This document shows positions 14,006 through 27,164 of a stretch of DNA of 64,000 bases, piece by piece (the first letter of the stretch is position 1; each line of letters opens with the position of its first letter). Where the stretch lies: the NCBI RefSeq assembly GCF_002924445.1, contig NZ_PIGG01000065.1, positions 1 through 64,000 of the forward strand, given 5' to 3'. The translations under genes and the position numbers were made by a program. The notes below the pieces were generated by a model. The model saw only the letters and a list, made by a program, of their open reading frames with translations, was not told the origin of the DNA and did no database searches. The DNA comes from Minwuia thermotolerans. Its GTDB lineage: Bacteria > Pseudomonadota > Alphaproteobacteria > Minwuiales > Minwuiaceae.

Positions 14006-14611
14006 TCAGGCGCGGAGCGGTGCAGCTTGGCGCTTCCAGGGGTCGGCGAACCCGTGGGGCTGCGGTACGGCGGCCAGGACATAGGAGTACAGGTCCCTGT
14101 ACTTCCGCTGCCGGCCGGCGCTGAACAGCGGATCCTCGTTGCCGAGGAAGGCGTCCTCCAGCACCGCAAGTTCTTCGGCGGTCAGCCGGCTGGCCGCCTG
14201 GGGCAGGATTTCCGTTTCCTCCAGGCGGATATGCGCCTTCTCGAAGGCGACATAGTCGTCCACGGCCTTGCAGAAGTTCCCGGCCTCCTCGGTGGGCCGG
14301 GTCCTGAGCCGCTCCAGCGCGCGCTCCAGATCGACCAGCCGCCGCTCGCCCTGGTCGTGCTCGTCGCGCAGGGTGTCGAGAACCGGCTTCAGGTCGGGCG
14401 CGCGGGCGTCCAGCGCCCTGAACAGGTAGGTTTCTTCCTTCGGGTGGTGGAAGCGCGCGGGAAAGGCCTCGAGATAGGCGAGAATGGCTTCGAACGGTGC
14501 CAGATCGGGCTGCACCTCCGGGTCCAGCAGCTCGCGCGAGAGCTGCGTCAGGCAGGTCAGCACCGCCCCCATGCGCCTGTGCTCGTCCTGGATTATCGTG
14601 ATCGCGTTCAT
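14006..14611 (-). CDS. hemerythrin HHE domain protein
   Basis: A 201-residue four-helix hemerythrin-like protein expected to bind a di-iron centre. Likely ligands are His11 (DEHRRM), the His-Glu set in FHHPKEETYL, His in LRDEHDQGER and His-Glu in FEKAHIRLEETEI. Such proteins sense or detoxify O2 or NO. The ATG at 14611 begins the conserved text MNAITIIQDEHRRMG. A palindrome ATTTG-N8-CAAAT lies 75 bases upstream, the same kind found before norZ, so NO-dependent expression is likely. Confidence 0.9.
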   Translation of the reverse strand: MNAITIIQDEHRRMGAVLTCLTQLSRELLDPEVQPDLAPFEAILAYLEAFPARFHHPKEETYLFRALDARAPDLKPVLDTLRDEHDQGERRLVDLERALERLRTRPTEEAGNFCKAVDDYVAFEKAHIRLEETEILPQAASRLTAEELAVLEDAFLGNEDPLFSAGRQRKYRDLYSYVLAAVPQPHGFADPWKRQAAPLRA

Positions 14612-14685
14612 GGCCGTCTCCCATGGCTCGAGGCGGACTTGCCGGCCGCCATCGATATCCAGCCTAGCGGCGCCATCCGCAGGCG

Positions 14686-14703
14686 ATTTGAGCCAGAACA
14701 AAT
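14686..14703. promoter_or_regulatory. ATTTG-N8-CAAAT palindrome, candidate NnrR/FNR-family site
   Basis: It reads ATTTG, AGCCAGAA, CAAAT. Two more copies with the same arms and spacer precede norZ and the DUF454 gene. It sits 75 bases upstream of the hemerythrin start and 77 bases before the divergent SDR gene, so it could serve either; the hemerythrin is the better functional match. Confidence 0.6.
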
Positions 14704-14779
14704 TTTCGGATGTTTTCGCGCCGCGCCGCCGGCCAGACTGGCGACCGCACCATCGACGGGGACCGGGGAGGAATACGGG

Positions 14780-15616
14780 ATGGCGGACAGACTGAAGAAC
14801 AAGGTGGCGATCGTGACCGGCGCGACCAGCGGCATGGGACTTCGCACCGCGCAACTCTATGCGGCGGAGGGCGCGACGGTGGTGTTGTCGGGGCGTCGAG
14901 CCGATCTGGGGGAACAGGCGGCGGCGCAGATCGGCCACGGCGCCAGTTTCGTGCGCTGCGACGTCACCGACGAAGCGGACGTCAGGGCGTTGATCGAGGG
15001 CACGGCCGAACGGCACGGCAGGCTGGACGTGTTGTTCAGCAATGCCGGCGGACCCGCCGCACTGGGGCGGGTGCAGGACATCGACCTGGCCGATCTGGAC
15101 GCCGCATACAACGTGCTGCTGCGCAGCGTCTTCGCCTGCACCAAATACGCCGCGCCGATCATGCGGGCGCAGCAGGCGGGTTCGATCATCAACAACGGCT
15201 CGGTCGCCGGCTACCGCGCCGGGTTCAGTTCCTCGATGGTCTACAGCCTGTTCAAGGGCGCGGTGGTGCATTTCACCAAGCTGGCGGCGCTGGAGCTGGG
15301 CGAGGATTTCGTGCGGGTGAACTCGATCTCGCCGGGCCCCATCGCGACCGACATCTTCGCCAAGTTCGCGGGTATGGATGACGCCGCATCCGAAGGGACG
15401 GCGGAGAAGGTCAAGGACCGCCTGGCGAAGGCGACGCCGATCCCCAGGGCCGGCCTTGTCGACGACGTCGCATGGGCTGCGGTCTATCTGGCGTCCGACG
15501 AGTCGGGCTATATCAACGCGCAGGACATCCTGGTCGACGGCGGCATGATCTGGGGGCGGCGGTTCTCCGAATCCGACGCGGGCCGCCAGGCCATGCACGA
15601 ATTCCTGAGAGGCTGA
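14780..15616 (+). CDS. SDR family NAD(P)-dependent oxidoreductase
   Basis: A 278-residue classical short-chain dehydrogenase. The cofactor motif is TGATSGMG near the N-terminus, NAG follows in LFSNAGGP, the catalytic serine in NNGSVAG and YSLFK gives the Tyr-Lys pair. SPGPIATDIF is the usual motif after the active site. Asp in RCDVTDEADV is the adenine-contact position. The substrate is unknown. GGGGAGG precedes the ATG. It runs toward the minus-strand CopD-like gene and ends five bases before it. Confidence 0.92.
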   Translation: MADRLKNKVAIVTGATSGMGLRTAQLYAAEGATVVLSGRRADLGEQAAAQIGHGASFVRCDVTDEADVRALIEGTAERHGRLDVLFSNAGGPAALGRVQDIDLADLDAAYNVLLRSVFACTKYAAPIMRAQQAGSIINNGSVAGYRAGFSSSMVYSLFKGAVVHFTKLAALELGEDFVRVNSISPGPIATDIFAKFAGMDDAASEGTAEKVKDRLAKATPIPRAGLVDDVAWAAVYLASDESGYINAQDILVDGGMIWGRRFSESDAGRQAMHEFLRG

Positions 15617-15621
15617 CCGCT

Positions 15622-16092
15622 TCAGATCGTGCCATGGGCGCCGAGTACGGCGGCGGCCGTGGCGATCAGGCTGACGGTGAGCAGCGTCCAGTGAAATCGC
15701 TGCACCAGCGCCATGGTTGCCTCCGGCGCGGTCCGGGCGCGGCGGCGGAACCAGTCGTGCAGGAACAGCGGCTCCGCCACGAACAGGACAACCGCGAAGA
15801 CCAGCCAGACGGCGAACATGGCGTGCATCCACCAGAAGCCCGCCTCCGCGAAGCGATGCCAGGCGTCCAGCCGCCAGGTCATCCAGAACCCGGAGAGGCC
15901 GGCGAGGGCGACGGAGATCTTCGCCTGCGCCGAGAACCGGCCCTCGACCGCTTCGAACAGTTCCATCCGGCGCGACGGCTCGGCGAAACGGCGCACGGCC
16001 GGCAGGATCACCGCCGTCACCATGAAGACGCCGCCGATCCAGTGGACCACGGCGAGAACGTGGATGGCGCGGGCGATGGTCAGGTCGTCCAT
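15622..16092 (-). CDS. CopD-like integral membrane protein
   Basis: A 156-residue protein with four hydrophobic segments (about residues 8-32, 55-75, 85-108, 130-152). Histidines in IHVLAVVHWIGG, WWMHAMFA and RFHWTLL lie in or near the membrane, as in CopD-like and other heme- or metal-handling membrane proteins. It follows norZ on the same strand by 77 bases, so it is probably expressed with the NO reductase and may assist its maturation; this role is inference. Confidence 0.65.
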   Translation of the reverse strand: MDDLTIARAIHVLAVVHWIGGVFMVTAVILPAVRRFAEPSRRMELFEAVEGRFSAQAKISVALAGLSGFWMTWRLDAWHRFAEAGFWWMHAMFAVWLVFAVVLFVAEPLFLHDWFRRRARTAPEATMALVQRFHWTLLTVSLIATAAAVLGAHGTI

Positions 16093-16169
16093 GTTCGTCT
16101 CTCCTGCAAAATGCGGAACGGCCGGGGCGCGGGCCCCGGCCGAACCGCCGCTGGCGCCTTTCTTCGTCT

Positions 16170-18461
16170 TCAGTCGCCGGGTTCGACTGCGGCGTCAACG
16201 GTCGCCGCAGGCCGGGGCTGTCTCAGCCGGGCGAAGGCGAGCCGTGCGGCAAAGACCGCCAGCACGCCGGCGCCGGCGCTGAAGACGATGTCGCCGGGCA
16301 CCCGCATCCATACCAGGAAGTGGATCAGCGGCTGCTGCAGGAACTCCGCCGAGCGCGCGTACCACAGCCCCTCCGAAACGCTCGCCCAGGCCTGGGCGAT
16401 GCCGACGGGGAACAGGCTCATCAGCACCATCATCGCCAGGCCGCCGTTGAGCAGCCAGAAGGACCAGGCCAGCGGCCGGTCGCTCCAGGCCGTGCGCGGG
16501 AACAGCCCGCGCAGGCAGAACAGCATCAGGCCGATGCCCAGCAGGCCGTAGACCCCGAACAGGGCGGCGTGAGCGTGGGTCGCCGTCAGGTTGAGGCCCT
16601 GTACGTAGTAGAGCGAGATCGGCGGGTTGATGAGGAAGCCGAACAGGCCGGCGCCCACCAGGTTCCAGAAGGCGACCGCGACGAAGAACAGGAGCGGCCA
16701 CTTGTAGGTCTCCACCCAGGGGGCCGACTTCGTCAGCTTCCAGTTCTCGTAGGCCTCGTGGCCGACCAGCGCCAGCGGCACCACTTCCAGGGCGGAGAAC
16801 ACCGCGCCGACGGCGATGACGCCGGTGGTGGTGCCCGAGAAGTAGAGATGGTGCAGGGTGCCGAGCACGCCGCCGGTGAGGAAGATCACCGTGGCGAACA
16901 GCACCGCGCCGTTGGCCGTCCGGGCCCGGACCAGGCCGAGCTTGACGGTCAGCAGGGCGATGGCGGCGGTGGCGAAGACCTCGAAGAAGCCCTCGACCCA
17001 CAGGTGCACCACCCACCAGCGCCAGTACTCGATCATCGACAGATGGGTGTGCTTGCCCCAGGTCAGGCCGGCCCCGTAGAACAGGCCGATCGCGACCGTC
17101 GACAGGAACAGGATGACAATCAGCGGCTGCGCTTCGCCCTTGTGGCTGAGCGCCGGCCAGAGCGCCCGGCCCACCAGCGCCAGCCAGAGCATCAGGCCCG
17201 TGAACAGTCCGATCTGCCAGAAGCGGCCGAGATCGACATATTCCCAGCCCTGATGGCCGAACCAGAAGTTGGTGTCGAGATCGAGGACCTGCTGCACGCC
17301 CAGCCATTCACCGGCCATCGATCCGACGACGACCAGCACCAGCGCCACGTAGAGCAGATCGACGCCGAGCTTCTGGAAACGCGGCTCGCGTCCGCCCAGC
17401 GCAGGGGCCAGGTAGAGGCCTGTGGCCAACCAGGCCGTGGCGATCCAGAACACGGCGAGCTGCGTGTGCCAGGTTCGGGTCACGGCGTAGGGCAGGATCT
17501 CGGACAACGGGTAGCCGTAGAAATCATGGCCTTCCACCGCGTAGTGCGCGGTGATCGCGCCGAGCGCGATCTGGGCGCAGAACAGGGCGATCACGGTCCA
17601 GAAATACTTCGCCGTCGCCCGCATGGAGGGCGTCGGGTTCAGCAGTCCGAGCGGATCCTCGGTCGGAGGTACGGGCGCGGGCTCGTGCTTGCGCGCAGCG
17701 TGCCACCAGGAGAGTGCGCCGATGCCGGCCACCAGCAGGATGATGCTGGCGATCGACCAGACGATGTTCGGCGTCGATGGCGCGTTCCCGACCAACGGCT
17801 CGTGCGGCCAGTTGGCCGTGTAGGTGACGTCGCTGTCCGGCCGTTCGGTCGTGGTGGCCCAGGCCGCCCACTGGAAGAAGGCCGCCAGCTTCTGGCGCCG
17901 CTCCAGGTCCGGAATCGCGCCGTTGGGGATGGCGTAGTCCTCCCTGAGCGCCTCCAGCGCCGCTGCGTCGCCGAACAGGCCGACGTAATGCGCCGCGACG
18001 GTCCGGATGGCCGCTGCACGGTCCTCGGATACGTAGATCGATGCGGTTTCCGGATCGTAGGTGTTGGCCCTGAGTTCCTGCTTCAGGCGTTCCTTGAGCG
18101 CACCCTGCTGATAGGCGTCGAGCGCATCGAAACCGGCCTTGCCGTATTCACGCGCCGCCCACATGTCGAGCAGCGTCACCGCCTCCCGGTGCAGCCAGTC
18201 GGCCGACCAGTCGGGGGCGAGATAGCCGCCATGGCCCCAGATCGAGCCGACCTGCTGGCCGCCCATCGACTGGTAGACCTGACGGCCGGTCTGGATGTCT
18301 TCCCTGGTGTATATCGTGGCGCCGTCCAGGCTGAGAACGGCTTCGGGGATGGGCGGCGCCTCCCGGTGGATCTCCCGTCCGAGCAGCAGCAGCGTGCTGA
18401 ACGAGGCCACCAGTATGAGCGCGAGGGCCACCCAGAGACGCGTGAGCGAACGGGTCGGCAT
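16170..18461 (-). CDS. norZ: quinol-dependent nitric oxide reductase (fused type)
   Basis: A 763-residue heme-copper-oxidase relative that reduces 2 NO to N2O with electrons from quinol in the inner membrane. The long N-terminal extension (about 220 residues) containing GRQVYQSMGGQQVGSIWGHG, followed by the catalytic 12-helix part, is diagnostic of the fused quinol type, and the length fits. Conserved His are seen in RTWHTQLAVFW and GLTWGKHTHLSMIEYW, with VHLWVEGFFEVF and LTATHAHAALFGVYG following. The ATG at 18461 has AAGGAGG eight bases upstream; an ATG 20 codons earlier lacks such a site. No NirK or NirS is nearby, so NO detoxification is as likely as denitrification. Confidence 0.95.
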   Translation of the reverse strand: MPTRSLTRLWVALALILVASFSTLLLLGREIHREAPPIPEAVLSLDGATIYTREDIQTGRQVYQSMGGQQVGSIWGHGGYLAPDWSADWLHREAVTLLDMWAAREYGKAGFDALDAYQQGALKERLKQELRANTYDPETASIYVSEDRAAAIRTVAAHYVGLFGDAAALEALREDYAIPNGAIPDLERRQKLAAFFQWAAWATTTERPDSDVTYTANWPHEPLVGNAPSTPNIVWSIASIILLVAGIGALSWWHAARKHEPAPVPPTEDPLGLLNPTPSMRATAKYFWTVIALFCAQIALGAITAHYAVEGHDFYGYPLSEILPYAVTRTWHTQLAVFWIATAWLATGLYLAPALGGREPRFQKLGVDLLYVALVLVVVGSMAGEWLGVQQVLDLDTNFWFGHQGWEYVDLGRFWQIGLFTGLMLWLALVGRALWPALSHKGEAQPLIVILFLSTVAIGLFYGAGLTWGKHTHLSMIEYWRWWVVHLWVEGFFEVFATAAIALLTVKLGLVRARTANGAVLFATVIFLTGGVLGTLHHLYFSGTTTGVIAVGAVFSALEVVPLALVGHEAYENWKLTKSAPWVETYKWPLLFFVAVAFWNLVGAGLFGFLINPPISLYYVQGLNLTATHAHAALFGVYGLLGIGLMLFCLRGLFPRTAWSDRPLAWSFWLLNGGLAMMVLMSLFPVGIAQAWASVSEGLWYARSAEFLQQPLIHFLVWMRVPGDIVFSAGAGVLAVFAARLAFARLRQPRPAATVDAAVEPGD

Positions 18462-18537
18462 GGCTTCGAACCTCCTTGACCAGGCGGCCGCATTGCCGCC
18501 TTCACCGGAACAGGCTTTCACGCAAGGGGGCGAGGCG

Positions 18538-18555
18538 ATTTGCGCGGGCGCAAAT
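18538..18555. promoter_or_regulatory. NnrR-type site upstream of norZ
   Basis: It reads ATTTGCGCGGGCGCAAAT, with 8-base perfect arms. The core TTGCG-N4-CGCAA is the form I recall for NnrR-type (CRP/FNR superfamily) sites of alphaproteobacterial NO-reductase genes. It lies 77 bases upstream of the norZ start, a distance that fits activation. Confidence 0.7.
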
Positions 18556-18603
18556 GCGGTGGAGCTCGACGCCGGTGCCCGTGCCTGCCGGTTTCCGCGG
18601 GCG

Positions 18604-18621
18604 ATTTGCCGCTGGACAAAT
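18604..18621. promoter_or_regulatory. second ATTTG-N8-CAAAT palindrome in the norZ/DUF454 intergenic region
   Basis: It reads ATTTG, CCGCTGGA, CAAAT. The arms match the first site, but the inner positions (TTGCC-N4-GACAA) are less symmetrical. It starts 66 bases from the first site and ends 83 bases before the DUF454 start, so it may drive that divergent gene or act as a weaker norZ site. Confidence 0.55.
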
Positions 18622-18704: not shown

Positions 18705-19076
18705 ATGCGCGTGTTCTATCTCGGACTGGGGTTCTTCTCGCTCGGCGGCGGCATCGCCGGCATCGTCCTGCCGCTGGTGCCGACGACGCCCTTCCTGCTG
18801 CTCGCCGCCTTCGCCTTCGCGCGGTCCAGCCCGCGTCTGCACGACTGGCTGACCGGGCATCCCAGGCTGGGCCCGCCAATCGCGCACTGGCGCGAGGGCG
18901 GCTGCATCGCGCCCCGGATCAAGGTCATCGCGGTCGCCGCCATGCTGGCTGTGCTCGCCGGAGGCTGGGCGGCCGGGCTTTCGGGCACGGTGATCGCGAT
19001 CCAGGCCGCTGTGCTCGGCCTGGTGGCGCTGTTCATCCTGACGCGGCCGCACCCGGCCGGGCAGACCGACGCCTAG
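18705..19076 (+). CDS. DUF454 (YbaN) family membrane protein
   Basis: A 123-residue inner-membrane protein of the YbaN/DUF454 family, whose function is unknown. It has an N-terminal hydrophobic hairpin (LGLGFFSLGGGIAGIVLPLV, PTTPFLLLAAFAFARSS) with the family's PLVPTTPF motif, a short loop, and two more segments near the C-terminus. It is divergent from norZ and shares the intergenic region with two NnrR-like sites. DUF454 genes are often found with nitrogen-oxide and haem genes, which fits. It ends at the stop of the convergent DUF336 gene. Confidence 0.88.
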   Translation: MRVFYLGLGFFSLGGGIAGIVLPLVPTTPFLLLAAFAFARSSPRLHDWLTGHPRLGPPIAHWREGGCIAPRIKVIAVAAMLAVLAGGWAAGLSGTVIAIQAAVLGLVALFILTRPHPAGQTDA

Positions 19077-20775: not shown

Positions 20776-21150
20776 TCATTGCCGGCGCCGGTCCGGATAT
20801 CCCTCTCGGCGCATCCGCTCTCTGGCCGGCTTGCAGAAGAACTCGTAGAGCATCCCCACGAGCTGTTCGACTTCATCGTCGGCCAGCGAATAATAGATCG
20901 TGCGCCCCTCGCGCCGCGTTGACACAAGTCTATCGAAGCGCAGGCGCGCCAGTTGCTGGGAAACCGCGGCCTGGGGCATTTCAAGCAGATCCTCGAGTTC
21001 GGAAACGGAGCGTTCGCCGTCAGCAAGGATACAAAGGATGATCAGGCGGCTCTCGTGCGACAGCGCCTTGAGCAGATCGCTGGCGTGCCGCGCCGTCTGC
21101 ATCAGCGTCGCCATATCCTCTGTGTCGGGCGGGGTCGAGTGTTCGTCCAT
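20776..21150 (-). CDS. soxR: ArsR-family regulator SoxR (SqrR/BigR type, persulfide-sensing)
   Basis: A 124-residue winged-helix repressor. Helix-turn-helix text SELEDLLEMPQAAVSQQLAR is followed by the wing STRREGRTIYYSL. Exactly two cysteines occur, Cys40 (RLIILCILADGE) and Cys106 (YEFFCKPAR). This pairing matches the two cysteines that form a tetrasulfide bridge in SqrR and relatives when sulfane sulfur appears, which releases DNA. Family knowledge and its place beside soxS indicate that it represses the sox genes until thiosulfate or sulfide is present. Confidence 0.9.
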   Translation of the reverse strand: MDEHSTPPDTEDMATLMQTARHASDLLKALSHESRLIILCILADGERSVSELEDLLEMPQAAVSQQLARLRFDRLVSTRREGRTIYYSLADDEVEQLVGMLYEFFCKPARERMRREGYPDRRRQ

Positions 21151-21174
21151 GCTGCTGTCCCGTCGGTGTCTGTC

Positions 21175-21573
21175 TCAGTCCTTCCTGACGCCGCCGCCGG
21201 GAGACGGGTCAGGCAGCCGGGATAGCATTTCGCCCAGCAGAAACCAGAAGAATTCGTCGCCGGGATAGCCGCGCAGACGGTCCACTTCGACCCCTTCGTG
21301 GACCAGGACGAAGGTCGGTGTGAACCGTTCGCGGCGGACCCCGGCCAGGTCCCCGGGCCAGGAGCCGGTGACGTCGACGCGCCGGAGTGGCGCGCGGGCG
21401 CCCTCCGCCGTCAGGGGATAGGCCGGCGCGATCTCCGCGTCGAAACGCCTGCACCAGGCGCAGCCGGGCCGCTCCAGCATGACCAGTTCGAGCGCCCCGG
21501 CAGCCGCTGGCCATGCGAGCGACGCCCAGACAAGCAGGCCGGCAATCACGCCGGATATCAACGATCTCCGCAT
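21175..21573 (-). CDS. soxS: periplasmic thioredoxin-like protein SoxS
   Basis: A thioredoxin-fold protein of about 132 residues with a signal peptide (RRSLISGVIAGLLVWASLAW) and a CAWC active site in LERPGCAWCRRFDAEI. The cis-Pro loop is FTPTFVLV. In Paracoccus, SoxS keeps the SoxY cysteine in a usable redox state. An in-frame ATG at 21588 adds five residues; neither start has a strong ribosome site. It is the first gene of the minus-strand unit soxS-soxR-permease-DUF336 and divergent from soxV. Confidence 0.88.
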   Translation of the reverse strand: MRRSLISGVIAGLLVWASLAWPAAAGALELVMLERPGCAWCRRFDAEIAPAYPLTAEGARAPLRRVDVTGSWPGDLAGVRRERFTPTFVLVHEGVEVDRLRGYPGDEFFWFLLGEMLSRLPDPSPGGGVRKD

Positions 21574-21593
21574 GGGCCCATTGCGCATTTCAT

Positions 21594-21629
21594 ATATTCA
21601 AACTCTAATATATATTGGATATTGAATAT
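21594..21629. promoter_or_regulatory. AT-rich inverted repeat between soxS and soxV, candidate SoxR operator
   Basis: Perfect 8-base arms ATATTCAA (21594-21601) and TTGAATAT (21622-21629) flank an AT-rich centre. Inside it two half-matching ATTC-N8-GAAT-like elements, ATTC-N8-ATAT and ATAT-N8-GAAT, are placed symmetrically. The surrounding DNA is GC-rich, so this patch stands out. An ArsR-type dimer pair controlling both divergent arms is the natural reading. Confidence 0.7.
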
Positions 21630-21695
21630 GACAAGGGCTAGGCCGCCGCGAGCGTGGGTGGACCCGGCTGAATCTGGGGCAGGAATCGGATCGAA

Positions 21696-22430
21696 ATGCT
21701 GGATGCCACCATCGGCGGCGCGCTGCTGGCCGGACTGCTGTCCTTCGTGACCCCCTGTGTCCTGCCGATCGTGCCGCCCTATCTCGCCTATCTTGCCGGT
21801 CTGAGCTTCGAGGAGTTCCGGGGCGATGCGCGGACCTCGGCCGCTTCCCGTCAGATCATCGCCGCGGCCATCGCCTTCGTCCTGGGGTTCACCACCGTCT
21901 TCGTCGCCCTTGGGGCCACTGCCAGTCTGATCGGGCAGAGCCTCGCGCGCTATTTCGACGTTCTCTCCATCGCCGCCGGAGCCATCATCATTGTCATGGG
22001 GCTTCACTTCCTTGGGATCTTCCGGATCGGTCTGCTGTTCCGGGAGGCGCGGATGGATGTGGTGCGCAAGCCGGCCGGCATGCTGGGCGCCTACGTGATG
22101 GGGCTGGCCTTTGCCTTTGGCTGGACCCCCTGCGTCGGCCCCGTGCTGGCGGCTATCCTGTTCGTCGCCGGTACCGAGGATACCGCGCTGCGCGGCGCCG
22201 GACTGCTCACGGCGTATTCCATCGGTATCGGTATCCCCTTCGTGCTGGCCGCGGTCTTCGCCAGCCGTTTCGTCGCCTGGGTGACGCGCTTCCGCCGCCA
22301 CATGCACCGCGTCGAGCAGGTCATGGGCGCCGTGCTGATCGTCACGGGCGTGCTGTTCATGACCGGCCAGATGGCGGCGATCGCCACCTGGCTGCTGGAA
22401 ACCTTCCCCGCTTTCGGAGAACTCGGATGA
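21696..22430 (+). CDS. soxV: CcdA-like thiol electron carrier SoxV
   Basis: A 244-residue inner-membrane protein of the CcdA/DsbD-beta family with six hydrophobic segments. The two redox cysteines are in FVTPCVLPIVPPY (about residue 21) and GWTPCVGPVLAA (about 140). It carries reducing equivalents from cytoplasmic thioredoxin across the membrane to SoxW and SoxS, which service the SoxYZ carrier. First gene of the plus-strand sox operon; its stop overlaps the soxW start. Confidence 0.93.
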   Translation: MLDATIGGALLAGLLSFVTPCVLPIVPPYLAYLAGLSFEEFRGDARTSAASRQIIAAAIAFVLGFTTVFVALGATASLIGQSLARYFDVLSIAAGAIIIVMGLHFLGIFRIGLLFREARMDVVRKPAGMLGAYVMGLAFAFGWTPCVGPVLAAILFVAGTEDTALRGAGLLTAYSIGIGIPFVLAAVFASRFVAWVTRFRRHMHRVEQVMGAVLIVTGVLFMTGQMAAIATWLLETFPAFGELG

Positions 22431-23026
22431 GAAGACGATCCATGTTGACGCGACTTTTTCTCGCATTCGCTCTGGTCCTGCCGGCGGCAGGCGCGCATGC
22501 GGCCAAGCTGGGCGAGGACGGCCTGCACAAGGAGGACTGGTTCGCCATTACCTTCCGCGACATCCGCGAGGACATGGCGGACGCCGCCGCGCAGGGCAAG
22601 CGGCTGGCGCTGATCTTCGAGCAGCGCGGCTGCATCTACTGCAAGAAGGTGCACGAGGAGGTGCTCAGCGATCCGCAGGTCCGCGACTACATCAAGGCCA
22701 ACTACCTGGTGGTCCAGTACAACCTGTACGGCGACGAGGAAGTCGTCGATCTCGACGGCGAGACGCTGACCGAGAAGACCGCCGGCCGGAAGTGGGGGAT
22801 CGTCTTCACCCCGACGATCCTGTTCATGCCGGAGACGGCCGGAGAGGAACTCAGCGCCAGCCAGGCGGCGGTGGCGGCGATGCCCGGCGCCTTCCGCAAG
22901 GGCACCTTCCTCGACATGTTCACCTGGGTCCGCGAGAAACGATACCAAACCGACGAGGATTTCCAACGCTTCCACGCGCGGCGAATCCGCGAGCGCGAGG
23001 CCGCTGGTGTGCAGAACACGGACTGA
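22427..23026 (+). CDS. soxW: periplasmic thioredoxin SoxW
   Basis: A 199-residue exported thioredoxin-like protein with signal sequence LTRLFLAFALVLPAAGAHA and a CIYC active site in FEQRGCIYCKKVHEEV. FTPTILFMPE carries the cis-proline. SoxW receives electrons from SoxV. The ATG overlaps the soxV stop (ATGA), showing translational coupling. The C-terminal extension after about residue 155 is rich in charged residues. Confidence 0.92.
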   Translation: MRRRSMLTRLFLAFALVLPAAGAHAAKLGEDGLHKEDWFAITFRDIREDMADAAAQGKRLALIFEQRGCIYCKKVHEEVLSDPQVRDYIKANYLVVQYNLYGDEEVVDLDGETLTEKTAGRKWGIVFTPTILFMPETAGEELSASQAAVAAMPGAFRKGTFLDMFTWVREKRYQTDEDFQRFHARRIREREAAGVQNTD

Positions 23027-23032
23027 TCCGTC

Positions 23033-23065
23033 ACAATATATGCAAGAATTACAATTTATGCATTG
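23033..23065. promoter_or_regulatory. AT-rich patch between soxW and soxX, candidate second SoxR site and promoter
   Basis: A 33-base AT-rich island inside GC-rich DNA, containing TATGCA twice (23039-23044 and 23057-23062) and CAAT-N8-GAAT. In Paracoccus pantotrophus SoxR also binds the soxW-soxX intergenic region, and this is the equivalent position, 92 bases upstream of soxX. No clean palindrome was found, so the site is tentative. Confidence 0.45.
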
Positions 23066-23156
23066 ATGGCCTTGGGGCGGCCCGTTACGCTTGTGGAAGA
23101 ACGAAAGAGAACGGCCCGGAACGGGCTGCACCTGCAGCGAGAGGAAACGACCTGAA

Positions 23157-23615
23157 ATGATTTCGGTAAGGACCATGCTGGCCGCGGCGAGTCTCTGCGT
23201 CGCCGCGTCCGTAGCCGCCGCGGGCGATGTGGCGCCCGGCGCCGTGAAGTTCGTCGACGGGGAAGTCGCCGGTTCGCTGACCAGCGCGGCGGGCGACCCG
23301 GCCGCAGGACGGAAGTATTTCGCCGACCGCAAGCTGGGCAACTGCCTGGCCTGCCATGTCAACGGCGACATGAGCGAACAGCTCTTCCATGGCGAGGTCG
23401 GCCCGCCGCTGGACGGCGTCGCCGAGCGCTGGACCCCGGAGCAGCTCAGGGCGATCGTGGCCAATTCCAAGGCCGTGTTCGGTCCGGACACGGTAATGCC
23501 CGGCTTCTACTCGCTGGAAGTCGGCGAGAACGTGCGCAAGGACCTCGTCGGCAAGACCATCCTCACTGCCGAGCAGGTCGAAAGCATCGTCGCCTATCTG
23601 GCCACGCTGAAGTGA
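23157..23615 (+). CDS. soxX: monoheme cytochrome c SoxX
   Basis: A 152-residue periplasmic c-type cytochrome, the small subunit of SoxAX, which couples thiosulfate oxidatively to the SoxY cysteine. It has a signal peptide (MISVRTMLAAASLCVAASVA), one heme motif CLACH in LGNCLACHVNGD, and a probable axial methionine in DTVMPGFYS. The start at 23157 was chosen for the signal peptide and the upstream GAGAGGAAACG. Confidence 0.93.
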   Translation: MISVRTMLAAASLCVAASVAAAGDVAPGAVKFVDGEVAGSLTSAAGDPAAGRKYFADRKLGNCLACHVNGDMSEQLFHGEVGPPLDGVAERWTPEQLRAIVANSKAVFGPDTVMPGFYSLEVGENVRKDLVGKTILTAEQVESIVAYLATLK

Positions 23616-23641
23616 CCGCCCATTCCATCAGGAGACATCGA

Positions 23642-24097
23642 ATGGAACTGACACGACGTCAGGCGCTCGCGCTATCCGCCGGCGCCGTCGCCTTCGCCGG
23701 ACTGGGATTCGTCCCCGGCCCGGCCTCCGCCGACGCGGCGGCGGCCGAGAAGCGGCTCATGGATTTCACCGGCGGCAAGGCGCCCCAGGAAGGGCGAATC
23801 ACTCTCACCGCGCCGGAAATCGCCGAGAACGGCAATACGGTTCCGATCTCGGTCTCGGTCGACAGCGAAATGACGCCCGACTCCTATGTCGAAGCGGTCA
23901 TGCTGGTGGCCGACGGCAACCCCAATCCGGCGGTGGCGACCTTCAACTTCACGCCGTCGAGCGGCGTGGCCGCGGCGACCACGCGGATGCGCCTGGCGCA
24001 GACCCAGAACGTGATCGCCGTTGCGCGGATGAACGACGGCTCCGCCTACATCGACCGCAAGCAGGTCAAGGTGACCATCGGCGGCTGCGGCGGCTGA
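23642..24097 (+). CDS. soxY: thiosulfate carrier subunit SoxY
   Basis: A 151-residue exported protein with a Tat-like signal (LTRRQALALSAGAVAFAG). The C-terminus ends in IGGCGG, the GGCGG swinging arm whose cysteine carries the sulfur substrate covalently through the Sox cycle. The ATG at 23642 has CAGGAG at good spacing; an in-frame codon at 23612 would spoil the signal peptide. Confidence 0.95.
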   Translation: MELTRRQALALSAGAVAFAGLGFVPGPASADAAAAEKRLMDFTGGKAPQEGRITLTAPEIAENGNTVPISVSVDSEMTPDSYVEAVMLVADGNPNPAVATFNFTPSSGVAAATTRMRLAQTQNVIAVARMNDGSAYIDRKQVKVTIGGCGG

Positions 24098-24118
24098 CCG
24101 GCAGACAAGGAAACAGAC

Positions 24119-24445
24119 ATGGCCAACTCCAAACCCCGCGTGAAGGTGCCCAAGTCGGCCGAAGCCGGCGAAGTCATCACCATCAAGACCTTGATCAACC
24201 ACACGATGGAATCGGGCCAGCGCAAGGACAAGCAGGGCAACCCGATCCCGCGCTCGATCATCAACAGCTTCAGCTGCGAGTTCAACGGCCAGCCGGTGTT
24301 CTCCTGCGATATCGAGCCGGCGATTTCGGCGAACCCCTATTTCGAGTTCAACGCCAAGGTCGTGGAAAGCGGCACCTTCAAGTTCACCTGGGTGGACGAC
24401 GATGGCTCCGTCTACACGCACGAGGCGCCGATCACGGTCAAGTAA
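24119..24445 (+). CDS. soxZ: sulfur oxidation subunit SoxZ
   Basis: A 108-residue immunoglobulin-like protein, the partner that forms the SoxYZ heterodimer. It has no signal peptide of its own and is expected to travel with Tat-exported SoxY. Family text is clear: KVPKSAEAGEVITIKTLINH, MESGQRKD and KFTWVDDDGSVYTHE. It lies 21 bases after soxY. Confidence 0.95.
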   Translation: MANSKPRVKVPKSAEAGEVITIKTLINHTMESGQRKDKQGNPIPRSIINSFSCEFNGQPVFSCDIEPAISANPYFEFNAKVVESGTFKFTWVDDDGSVYTHEAPITVK

Positions 24446-24491
24446 GGCGCGGGGTCACATCGCGCCCGGGACAACTCAGGAGGAAACCAAG

Positions 24492-25355
24492 GTGCTGAAG
24501 ACGAAGCTCATCTGGGCGGCCGTGGCGGCAATCACCGCCGCCGGCTGGCTGGCGGCGCCGGCGGGCGCAGAGCCTGTGAATGACGATCTGGTCATCGACG
24601 GCGAGATTCACATGACCACTCGGACGAAGGCGGCCGAGGGCATGCCTTTCGACGAGGTGCTTTCCGGCTGGCTCTTCCGAACCGACGAGACCCGCATGCT
24701 GGAGGCGGACTCATTCCAGAACCCCGGCATGCTCTATGTCGAGCGCGGCGAGGAACTCTGGAACAAGGTGGAGGGGGAGGCCGGGAAGTCCTGCGCCTCT
24801 TGCCATGGCGACGCGTCCAAGAGCATGAAGGGCGTCGGCGCCAGCTACCCGAAATGGGATGCGGAGGCAGGCCGCCCGATCAATGTCGAGTTGCAGATCA
24901 ACAACTGCCGCGAGAAGAACATGAAGGCCGAGCCCTACAAGTTCGACGCGGCCGAGCAGAAGGCGCTGACCACTTTCATCAAGCATCAATCCCTGGGCGA
25001 CCCGCTCGGCATCGACCTCGCCGCTGGCGACATGCAGGGCTGGTGGGAGAAGGGCAAGGATCTCTACTACAAGCGGACCGGCCAGCTGAACCTCGCCTGC
25101 GCATCCTGCCACGAACAATACAACGGCAAATACATCCGCGCCGACCATCTGAGCCAGGGCAACGTCAATGGCTTCCCGACCTATCGTCTGAAGCAGGCCA
25201 ACATGGTGTCGCTGCACAACCGGTTCCGCGGCTGCATCCGGGATACCCGCGCGGAATTCCCGGCGGCCTTCTCCGACGAACTGATGGCGCTGGAAGTCTA
25301 TGTCACCTGGCGTGGCACCGGGCTTTCGGTCGAGACGCCGGCGGTTCGCCAGTAG
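24492..25355 (+). CDS. soxA: diheme cytochrome c SoxA
   Basis: A 287-residue periplasmic SoxA, catalytic partner of SoxX. Two CASCH heme motifs are present (GKSCASCHGDAS and LACASCHEQYNG), the diheme type. The active-site cysteine, a persulfide heme ligand in SoxAX, is in RFRGCIRDTR. A signal peptide (WAAVAAITAAGWLAAPAGA) follows the GTG start, which has AGGAGGAAACC upstream. No ATG gives a better signal peptide. Confidence 0.94.
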   Translation: MLKTKLIWAAVAAITAAGWLAAPAGAEPVNDDLVIDGEIHMTTRTKAAEGMPFDEVLSGWLFRTDETRMLEADSFQNPGMLYVERGEELWNKVEGEAGKSCASCHGDASKSMKGVGASYPKWDAEAGRPINVELQINNCREKNMKAEPYKFDAAEQKALTTFIKHQSLGDPLGIDLAAGDMQGWWEKGKDLYYKRTGQLNLACASCHEQYNGKYIRADHLSQGNVNGFPTYRLKQANMVSLHNRFRGCIRDTRAEFPAAFSDELMALEVYVTWRGTGLSVETPAVRQ

Positions 25356-25457
25356 CACGCGGCGGCGCGCCGGCGGCTCCCTGGACCGCCGGCACGCCGC
25401 CGGTTCCAGGCAAGTGTTCGGCGGGCCGCGTCCGGGGAGGGACGATGCGGCCGGCAA

Positions 25458-27164
25458 ATGGGGAAAGAAATGGTTTCGAGACGCGAATTCCTGCTGGCCT
25501 CCGTGGCGCTTGGCGCCATCGCGGGCTCGGGGATCACCGGCGGGTGGACCAGGGCCGCCGCGCAGCAGTCCCTGTCCGAAGACGACCTGCTCGCCATGGA
25601 CGATTTCGGCAATGTGACGCTGCTTCACGTGACCGACATCCATGCGCAGCTCAAGCCGCTCTACTTCCGCGAACCTTCGGTCAATATCGGCGTGGGCGAG
25701 GTCGCGGGCCTTCCCCCCCACATCACCGGCAAGGCCTTTCTCGAGGCCTACGGGATCGCGCCCGGCAGCGCGAACGCCTATGCTCTGACGTCGGTCGATT
25801 TCGCCGCGCTGGCCCGGACATACGGGCGCATGGGCGGGCTCGACAGGGTGGCGACGATCGTCAACCGGCTCCGGGCCGAGCGCGAAGGCAAGGTGCTGTT
25901 TCTCGACGGCGGCGACACCTGGCAGGGCAGCTACACCGCGAACGCGACCCGCGGCGCGGACATGGTGGAGGCGATGAACGCGCTTTCGCCGGACGCGATG
26001 ACGGGCCACTGGGAGTTCACCTACGGCACCGACCGGGTAAACGAACTCATCGAGCAGCTCGACTTCCCGCTGCTGGCCGGCAACATCTACGACGCGGAAT
26101 GGAACGAGCCGGCCTTCGAGGCCTATCGCATCTTCGAGCGCGGCGGCGCGCGTGTCGCTGTCCTGGGGCAGGCGTTTCCCTATACACCCATCGCCAATCC
26201 GCGCTGGATGATTCCCAACTGGAGCTTCGGTATTCGCGAGGAGGAAGTCGCGCGCAATGTCGAGGCCGCGCGGGCGGAGGGCGCCGACGTCGTCGTCCTG
26301 CTGTCCCACAACGGCTTCGACGTCGACCGCAAGCTGGCGCAGCGGGTCAAGGGCATCGACGTAGTCCTCAGCGGTCACACCCATGACGCCCTGCCGGAGG
26401 CGGTGCACGTGGGCGAGAGCACGCTGCTCATCGCATCCGGTTCCAACGGCAAGTTCGTCTCCCGTCTCGACCTCGACATCGCCGACGGGGCGGTGAAGGA
26501 CTTCCGCTATCGGCTCATCCCGGTCTTTTCCGACATCATCGGGGCCGACCCGGACATGGCGGCGCTGATTGACCGGCTGCGGGCCCCGTACGAGGCCGAA
26601 CTGAAACGCGAACTCGCGCACACCGAAACGCTGCTCTACCGGCGCGGCAACTTCAACGGCACCTTCGACGACCTGATCTGCCGTGCGCTGATCGAGGAGC
26701 GCGACGCCGAAATCGCCCTCTCGCCGGGCTTCCGCTGGGGCACGTCGCTGCTGCCCGGTCAGCCGATCACGGTGGAGGATGTCCACAACGCCTGCGCCAT
26801 GACCTATCCGGAAGCCTACCGCTCCAAGATGAGCGGCCAGCTGGTCAAGGACATCCTCGAGGACGTGGCCGACAATCTCTTCAATCCGGATCCCTACTAC
26901 CAGCAGGGCGGTGACATGGTCCGCGTCGGCGGTATGGGCTACCGGATCGATCCCTCGAAGCCCGTCGGCTCGCGCATTTCCGAGATGACAATGCTGGCCA
27001 CCGGCGAGCCGGTCGACCCTTCCCGCGACTACGTCGTCGCAGGCTGGGCATCGGTCAACGAGGGCACGGAGGGGCCGCCCGTATGGGACGTCATCGAGGC
27101 GCACCTGAAGCGGCACCCCACGGTCGACATCCCGGAGAACCGCTCGGTGAAGGTGGCCGGATAG
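25458..27164 (+). CDS. soxB: thiosulfohydrolase SoxB
   Basis: A 568-residue dimanganese enzyme of the 5'-nucleotidase family that hydrolyses the sulfonate from SoxY-bound S-thiocysteine sulfonate. A Tat signal (VSRREFLLASVALGA) opens it. Metal-binding motifs are in order: HVTDIHAQL, LDGGDTWQGS, MTGHWEFTYG, LLSHNGFD and LSGHTHDALP. The in-frame ATG at 25470 has GGGGAAAG upstream and still gives the complete Tat motif, so it may be the real start. A GC-rich imperfect stem lies in the 102 bases between soxA and soxB. Confidence 0.95.
   Translation: MGKEMVSRREFLLASVALGAIAGSGITGGWTRAAAQQSLSEDDLLAMDDFGNVTLLHVTDIHAQLKPLYFREPSVNIGVGEVAGLPPHITGKAFLEAYGIAPGSANAYALTSVDFAALARTYGRMGGLDRVATIVNRLRAEREGKVLFLDGGDTWQGSYTANATRGADMVEAMNALSPDAMTGHWEFTYGTDRVNELIEQLDFPLLAGNIYDAEWNEPAFEAYRIFERGGARVAVLGQAFPYTPIANPRWMIPNWSFGIREEEVARNVEAARAEGADVVVLLSHNGFDVDRKLAQRVKGIDVVLSGHTHDALPEAVHVGESTLLIASGSNGKFVSRLDLDIADGAVKDFRYRLIPVFSDIIGADPDMAALIDRLRAPYEAELKRELAHTETLLYRRGNFNGTFDDLICRALIEERDAEIALSPGFRWGTSLLPGQPITVEDVHNACAMTYPEAYRSKMSGQLVKDILEDVADNLFNPDPYYQQGGDMVRVGGMGYRIDPSKPVGSRISEMTMLATGEPVDPSRDYVVAGWASVNEGTEGPPVWDVIEAHLKRHPTVDIPENRSVKVAG

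Follow-up and report, generated by a model that had tools for sequence, protein, structure and literature searches.

Among alphaproteobacteria, CRP/FNR-family regulators of the NnrR type lack the FNR cysteine cluster (PMC1274295, section 8) and are assigned the consensus ctTTGcgnnnncgCAAag, and boxes of the form TTTGCG-N4-CGCAAA precede the nor, nir, and nos genes of the regulon (PMC1274295). In Bradyrhizobium diazoefficiens, a DUF1858 gene and nirK both depend on NnrR, their boxes lying at -62 and -74, and the nitric oxide (NO) reductase genes are norCBQD (PMC6710368). Hemerythrin-fold proteins of the RIC/YtfE/NorA kind also occur in NO regulons, but there under NorR or NsrR (PMC9045102 on NorA; PMC1274295 on dnrN), and NorA and RIC proteins are thought to bind NO or O2 or to shield iron centers (PMC9045102). 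Hemerythrin-like genes under CRP/FNR-type regulators are already known, both from HcpR regulons (PMC1274295) and from Pseudomonas aeruginosa, in which Anr controls mhr; Anr, however, responds to low oxygen, and Mhr binds O2 (PMC12403760). The word "hemerythrin" occurs 0 times in the text of PMC6710368, and a survey conducted mostly at the depth of titles and listings met no published case of a hemerythrin gene controlled by NnrR.

The window, by which we mean the whole 64-kb stretch of Minwuia thermotolerans DNA that was analyzed, departs from the described NnrR regulon in two respects: the NO reductase is of the quinol type (norZ), and a hemerythrin gene carries a box. We consider it likely that the palindromes before norZ and the hemerythrin gene are binding sites of an NnrR-type CRP/FNR activator encoded beside nirK on another contig of the same genome (C47). 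This assignment names a likely regulator gene, adds a hemerythrin to the putative NnrR-type regulon of a little-studied alphaproteobacterial genus, and makes an NO-handling role of that protein directly testable. The features of the window on which the argument turns are as follows.

14006..14611, minus strand: hemerythrin-domain protein, 201 aa (PF01814, E 1.1e-15)
14661..14666, minus strand: -10-like hexamer TAGGCT of the hemerythrin gene, starting 19 bases beyond the site edge
14686..14703, no strand: predicted NnrR-type site of the hemerythrin gene, with the SDR gene 76 bases away on the other side (exact pattern; matrix ranks; conservation)
14780..15616, plus strand: SDR oxidoreductase, divergent neighbor (PF13561, E 3e-57)
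15622..16092, minus strand: 156-aa gene following norZ after 77 bases (unmatched in Pfam and NCBIfam)
16170..18461, minus strand: norZ, quinol-type nitric oxide reductase, 763 aa (PF22085 and PF00115; no NCBIfam match)
18538..18555, no strand: NnrR-type site of norZ, TTTGCG-N4-CGCAAA (exact pattern; 0/18 changes versus the sister genome G001)
18604..18621, no strand: DUF454-side palindrome, doubtful (outer arms match exactly; inner bases differ from those of NnrR boxes)
18705..19076, plus strand: DUF454 (YbaN-like) protein, 123 aa (PF04304, E 6e-34)

Palindromes in the window and the genome

The initial annotation had drawn attention to three ATTTG-N8-CAAAT palindromes, and exact copies were indeed present at 14686-14703, 18538-18555, and 18604-18621 and nowhere else in the window, compared with a mean of 0.02 copies in 100 shuffled windows, none of which held three. 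Among first-order Markov copies (40,000 for each stretch), an exact site arose in 4 for the hemerythrin-SDR stretch and in 15 for the norZ-DUF454 stretch. The entire 4.9-Mb genome contained five exact sites, three of them clustered within these 3.9 kb, versus none for a reversed control; with up to one mismatch allowed the counts were 24 versus 2, and the shorter TTTG-N8-CAAA gave only 13 versus 8. The three palindromes had been described as identical in arms and spacer; this holds for the outer arms, but the inner bases differ, with TTGAG..GAACAA at the hemerythrin site, TTGCG..CGCAA at the norZ site (the TTGCG-N4-CGCAA core reported for that copy is present), and TTGCC..GGACAA at the DUF454 site. 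Distances previously given as 75 and 77 bases were corrected on recounting from site edge to ATG to 74 for the hemerythrin gene (ATG at 14611, minus strand) and 76 for norZ (ATG at 18461, minus strand), with 83 for the DUF454 gene (ATG at 18705, plus strand). The site at 14686 also lies 76 bases from the ATG (14780) of the divergent SDR gene, and position alone therefore cannot tell which gene it serves.

The norZ palindrome is, by its letters, a textbook NnrR-type box: it conforms to the consensus, precedes a nor gene, and is unchanged at all 18 positions in the sister genome, in which the flanks differ at 3/76 and 8/149 positions. Comparison of 80 norZ loci, the best of 236, revealed a TTG-N8-CAA box 77 to 89 bases before norZ in all seven of the nearest relatives (78 to 84% identity); of the remaining 73 loci, 17 had such a box within 300 bases, 15 of these being of the TTGA..TCAA kind. 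Taken together, 24 of these 80 best loci carried TTG-N8-CAA within 300 bases, against 4.8 expected from shuffles, and 4 carried TTTG-N8-CAAA, against 0.34 expected.

Scanning the genome for sites upstream of nitrogen-oxide genes, a check suggested with the initial annotation, gave results in its favor. A fourth exact site is located 62 bases before nosR on contig C73, with nosZ behind it; nosR was identified by NF046105 at 819.5 bits, below the cut-off of 1000, and nosZ by TIGR04244, above its cut-off. This site showed no change at 18 positions in the sister genome between flanks altered at 32/62 and 25/96. On contig C47, a DUF1858 gene (PF08984 and TIGR03980, both above their cut-offs) has a one-mismatch site 58 bases ahead of it, and an 18-mer with the core TTGTTGCAGCGCAA lies 67 bases before nirK (TIGR02376). 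The box given for nirK in B. diazoefficiens, where the nnrR mutant shows down-regulation of that gene, matches this 14-base core letter for letter (PMC6710368). The fifth exact site (G000:C31:361828-361845; L006 7829) is FNR-like inside and has no clear target. In the sister genome all four exact sites precede genes, namely, nosR, norZ, the hemerythrin gene, and napE, and the exact sites examined in genomes G003 and G006, both of which are without a close ortholog of the C47 regulator, lie inside open reading frames; the site of G002 (L096) and the second site of G003 (L101) were outside this comparison.

Several further features of these contigs were observed, mostly by eye. The frames that follow nosZ on C73 look like nosDFYL. 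The same contig bears a nirK remnant (L007 9104-9252) in which the start and approximately 20 codons are kept before a stop. An NnrR-type site (AATTGCTGCAGCGCAAAT) precedes this remnant, and a second copy of pseudoazurin follows it. A rubrerythrin/ferritin-like gene (L007 8022-8936; PF02915) is divergent from nosR, with the nosR site between the two, and a gene annotated as a ferritin family protein is likewise divergent from nosR on Mesorhizobium pB2-1-8 (L171 24551). The frame next to the DUF1858 gene resembles nnrS, an FNR/NnrR-like ATTTGAGATAGGTCAAAA is situated 63 bases before a hemN-looking frame (G000:C64:69024-69041; L136), and the C31 site is found about 100 bases past the 3' end of an open reading frame of 404 aa.

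A candidate regulator on contig C47

The regulator had been described as not encoded here, which holds for the contig of the window, where a profile search gave no PF13545 match, but not for the genome: the search for an nnrR gene led to a 232-aa CRP/FNR protein encoded on C47 between the DUF1858 gene and nirK, with a pseudoazurin gene also adjoining. The protein has CRP/FNR architecture (PF00027, 71.1 bits; PF13545, 62.6 bits), its sequence is free of an FNR-type N-terminal cysteine run, and its gene stands beside denitrification genes. NCBIfam yielded no NnrR model and no match over cut-off for this protein, and the relatives found among solved structures were general members of the CRP/FNR family. 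From its architecture, neighborhood, motif, and recognition helix, we class it as a putative NnrR-type regulator.

Orthologs of the C47 protein (59 to 68% identity) were found near norZ at five of the seven nearest norZ loci (L012-L015 and L017; norZ identity, 78 to 84%); of the other two, L016 is on a contig that stops 1.1 kb short of norZ, and no regulator ortholog is present within 6 kb in L018. More distant relatives on plasmids (40 to 56%) were near nos, nap, nar, nirK, nnrS, or hmp genes in all eight cases examined, from 721 matching records. The recognition helix stretch TTLHTVSR is identical in the C47 protein and its five orthologs, and the three other CRP/FNR-type proteins compared from the genome, a set that leaves out its fifth PF13545 protein (L005), have Glu where the C47 protein has His. 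This contrast agrees with the residue-base correlation of Rodionov et al., who link this position (E181 of CRP) to motif base 6 (PMC1274295). In the sister genome we observed two nearly identical regulator copies (C1:593200 and 2607833), the second of which, matched over residues 35 to 232, is approximately 2.5 kb from the nosR site.

Within the genus, norZ, the close regulator ortholog, the hemerythrin gene, and the DUF454 gene all occur in the same two of seven genomes (G000 and G001) and are absent from the other five, in which the best regulator match is 24% at most; since norZ, the DUF454 gene, and the hemerythrin gene are neighbors, this does not represent four independent events. At the level of family and of order alike the comparison covered nine genomes, too few to extend this co-occurrence pattern.

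We infer the following course of events as the most likely one. NO made by NirK would activate the NnrR-type dimer. Bound to TTTG-N8-CAAA, about 41 bases upstream of the transcription start, the dimer would recruit RNA polymerase at norZ, nosR, nirK, the DUF1858 gene, and the hemerythrin gene. With NO present and oxygen low, the reduction of NO (norZ), nitrite (nirK), and N2O (nosR-nosZ) would thus be switched on, together with the DUF1858 gene, its downstream neighbor, and, in this lineage, the di-iron hemerythrin. The last could bind either NO or O2 or else shield iron centers.

The hemerythrin gene and its predicted site

By eye, the window hemerythrin has histidines and HxxxE pairs of the two-iron-holding kind, which we take to be a di-iron ligand set. 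RIC proteins have curated models of their own beyond the general hemerythrin domain; the window protein, unlike them, was matched by Pfam PF01814 alone, with no RIC-type or other NCBIfam model at an E value of 0.001, and a search of solved structures returned no usable hemerythrin relative. A link between this protein and NO through its 36% relatives was considered and rejected, as they are located on two Azospirillum plasmids, not near NO genes. One further genome of the family (G008) has a hemerythrin relative (40%), with an FNR-like ACTTGATCTGGGTCAAGT approximately 60 bases before the matched start; a close ortholog of the C47 regulator was not found in it.

Three Azospirillum plasmids, which are near relatives of one another, carry another hemerythrin-domain gene near the regulator and nos genes, its start preceded at a distance of exactly 76 bases by a box of the TTGCG or TTGTG type; its product could not be aligned with the window hemerythrin (BLASTP E value, 5.4), and the regulator region examined in A. 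lipoferum had no hemerythrin gene. One may tentatively speculate that NnrR-type regulons have repeatedly recruited non-RIC/YtfE hemerythrins, these two nonalignable proteins among them, as NO-handling di-iron proteins, and that DUF454 has recently become a membrane partner of norZ, with a promoter site still in flux, a conjecture that we hold to be improbable as it stands.

That the palindrome at 14686 is a predicted NnrR-type site of the hemerythrin gene is strongly supported. A matrix built from 12 sites, with the hemerythrin and DUF454 sites withheld, scored it at 24.0, fourth of the 136,061 positions scanned (the window plus six genomic stretches), and left-out training sites scored 16.2 to 29.9; with matrices from five own-genome sites and from seven Bradyrhizobium boxes it ranked fifth and sixth of about 136,000. 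In each scan the positions that outranked it were boxes of nosR, norZ, the DUF1858 gene, nirK, or the nirK remnant. For the first two matrices these boxes had served as training sites, which share their arms partly by selection and lie in the scanned sequence, so that they must rank high. The site fits the NnrR motif without a TTGCG half-site and is unchanged at its 18 positions in the sister genome. The -10-like hexamer of the hemerythrin gene has counterparts at offset 20 before nirK (TAGGTT) and the DUF1858 gene (TATTCT), a distance that presumably represents class II CRP/FNR activator spacing; such hexamers at offset 19 to 20 were found in three of the seven promoters examined, and none was found at the SDR, norZ, DUF454, and nosR promoters.

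The site might instead serve the divergent SDR gene, alone or jointly with the hemerythrin gene, since it lies at the same kind of distance from both, and an SDR gene is present in the regulator cluster of Azospirillum lipoferum. Against the sister genome, however, the SDR side has changed at 17 of 76 columns and the hemerythrin side at only 2 of 74, and the SDR side is the one without a -10-like hexamer; the SDR gene is probably not a target, and we rate even its joint control as unlikely.

Competing explanations and the DUF454 gene

Assignment of the norZ and hemerythrin sites to a common NnrR-type regulon of the alphaproteobacterial kind is well supported by sequence comparison, and to this extent the earlier proposal of one regulator over three genes stands; its extension to DUF454 is weak. 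The caveats to the favored explanation are the missing TTGCG half-site at the hemerythrin gene, the linkage that confounds its co-occurrence with norZ, the -10-like hexamers absent from norZ and nosR themselves, the one exact genome site in five without a clear target, the FNR-like box of the G008 relative with no close regulator ortholog found there, and the Azospirillum relatives encoded away from NO genes. Some of these observations would suit another, oxygen-responsive CRP/FNR protein (FNR- or FixK-like) acting at the sites in place of the NnrR-type protein or alongside it: the G008 box is FNR-like, boxes of the form TTGAT-N4-ATCAA occur in the genome, a CRP/FNR protein encoded on C45 has an FNR-like cysteine run by eye, and the FixK2 and NnrR boxes of B. 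diazoefficiens are alike (PMC6710368). The norZ, nosR, and DUF1858 boxes, however, have C and not A at the base tied to the helix Glu/His, and orthologs of the C47 protein travel with norZ, which makes such a user of the sites a rather poor candidate. Chance matches with no regulatory role are very improbable, for while the C31 site and those inside open reading frames in G003 and G006 seemingly do not serve NO genes, the rarity, clustering, neighboring genes, and conservation of the sites all speak against chance.

The status of DUF454 is a separate matter. If all three sites worked, as the initial annotation proposed, the palindrome would give the gene a function, and some observations are compatible with membership: the outer arms are exact, such arms arose in only the 15 of 40,000 Markov copies noted above, one of its half-sites, TTGTC, is also seen in the boxes that NnrR-dependent genes of B. 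diazoefficiens carry (PMC6710368), the gene is confined to the same two of seven genus genomes as norZ, and a weak TATGGA at offset 19, outside the hexamer pattern used, was seen by eye. On the other hand, the site scored only 10.8 with the 12-site matrix built without it, close to background, given that Markov copies held 2.5 positions per 64 kb at a threshold of 10 and 1.6 at a threshold of 11, and it ranked 8 and 16 with the matrices from own-genome sites and Bradyrhizobium boxes. Its core G is T in the sister genome (1/18 changed, versus 8/142 and 2/83 in the flanks), which, as one base in one genome, is modest evidence; TTG-N8-CAA is absent from 3.3 kb around the family-level DUF454 relative in G008; and co-occurrence with norZ is confounded by adjacency. 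A more general linkage of DUF454 to norZ was rejected: with the window protein as the query, a homolog was present at only 1 of the 80 norZ loci (best of 236), about 5.3 kb beyond norZ at L083, and of three plasmid relatives examined from 19 matching records, two were not near NO genes, and the region of the third was unannotated. No text pairing "DUF454" with "nitric oxide" was found in a literature search. True membership thus seems doubtful and is unproven, and with so little support for the box no function can be assigned to DUF454 from it. Most likely the palindrome on the DUF454 side is degenerate or auxiliary and does not make the gene a regulon member; it may be in decay or newly arisen, or it may assist norZ from upstream, being separated from the norZ box by 66 bases center to center. 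The lesson of this case is that matching palindrome arms alone should not assign gene function.

Two observations concern the surroundings of norZ. The 156-aa gene behind norZ is on the same strand and probably cotranscribed with it; by eye its product has the look of a membrane protein, and homologs of 50 to 52% identity occur at three sphingomonad loci (L022-L024), approximately 3.3 kb from norZ and on the opposite strand. Nearby, positions 20776-27164 of the window contain frames that by eye resemble a sox thiosulfate-oxidation cluster (SoxX, Y, Z, A, and B), and within this stretch is a gene for an ArsR-type regulator (20776-21150) that matched the BigR model below its cut-off.
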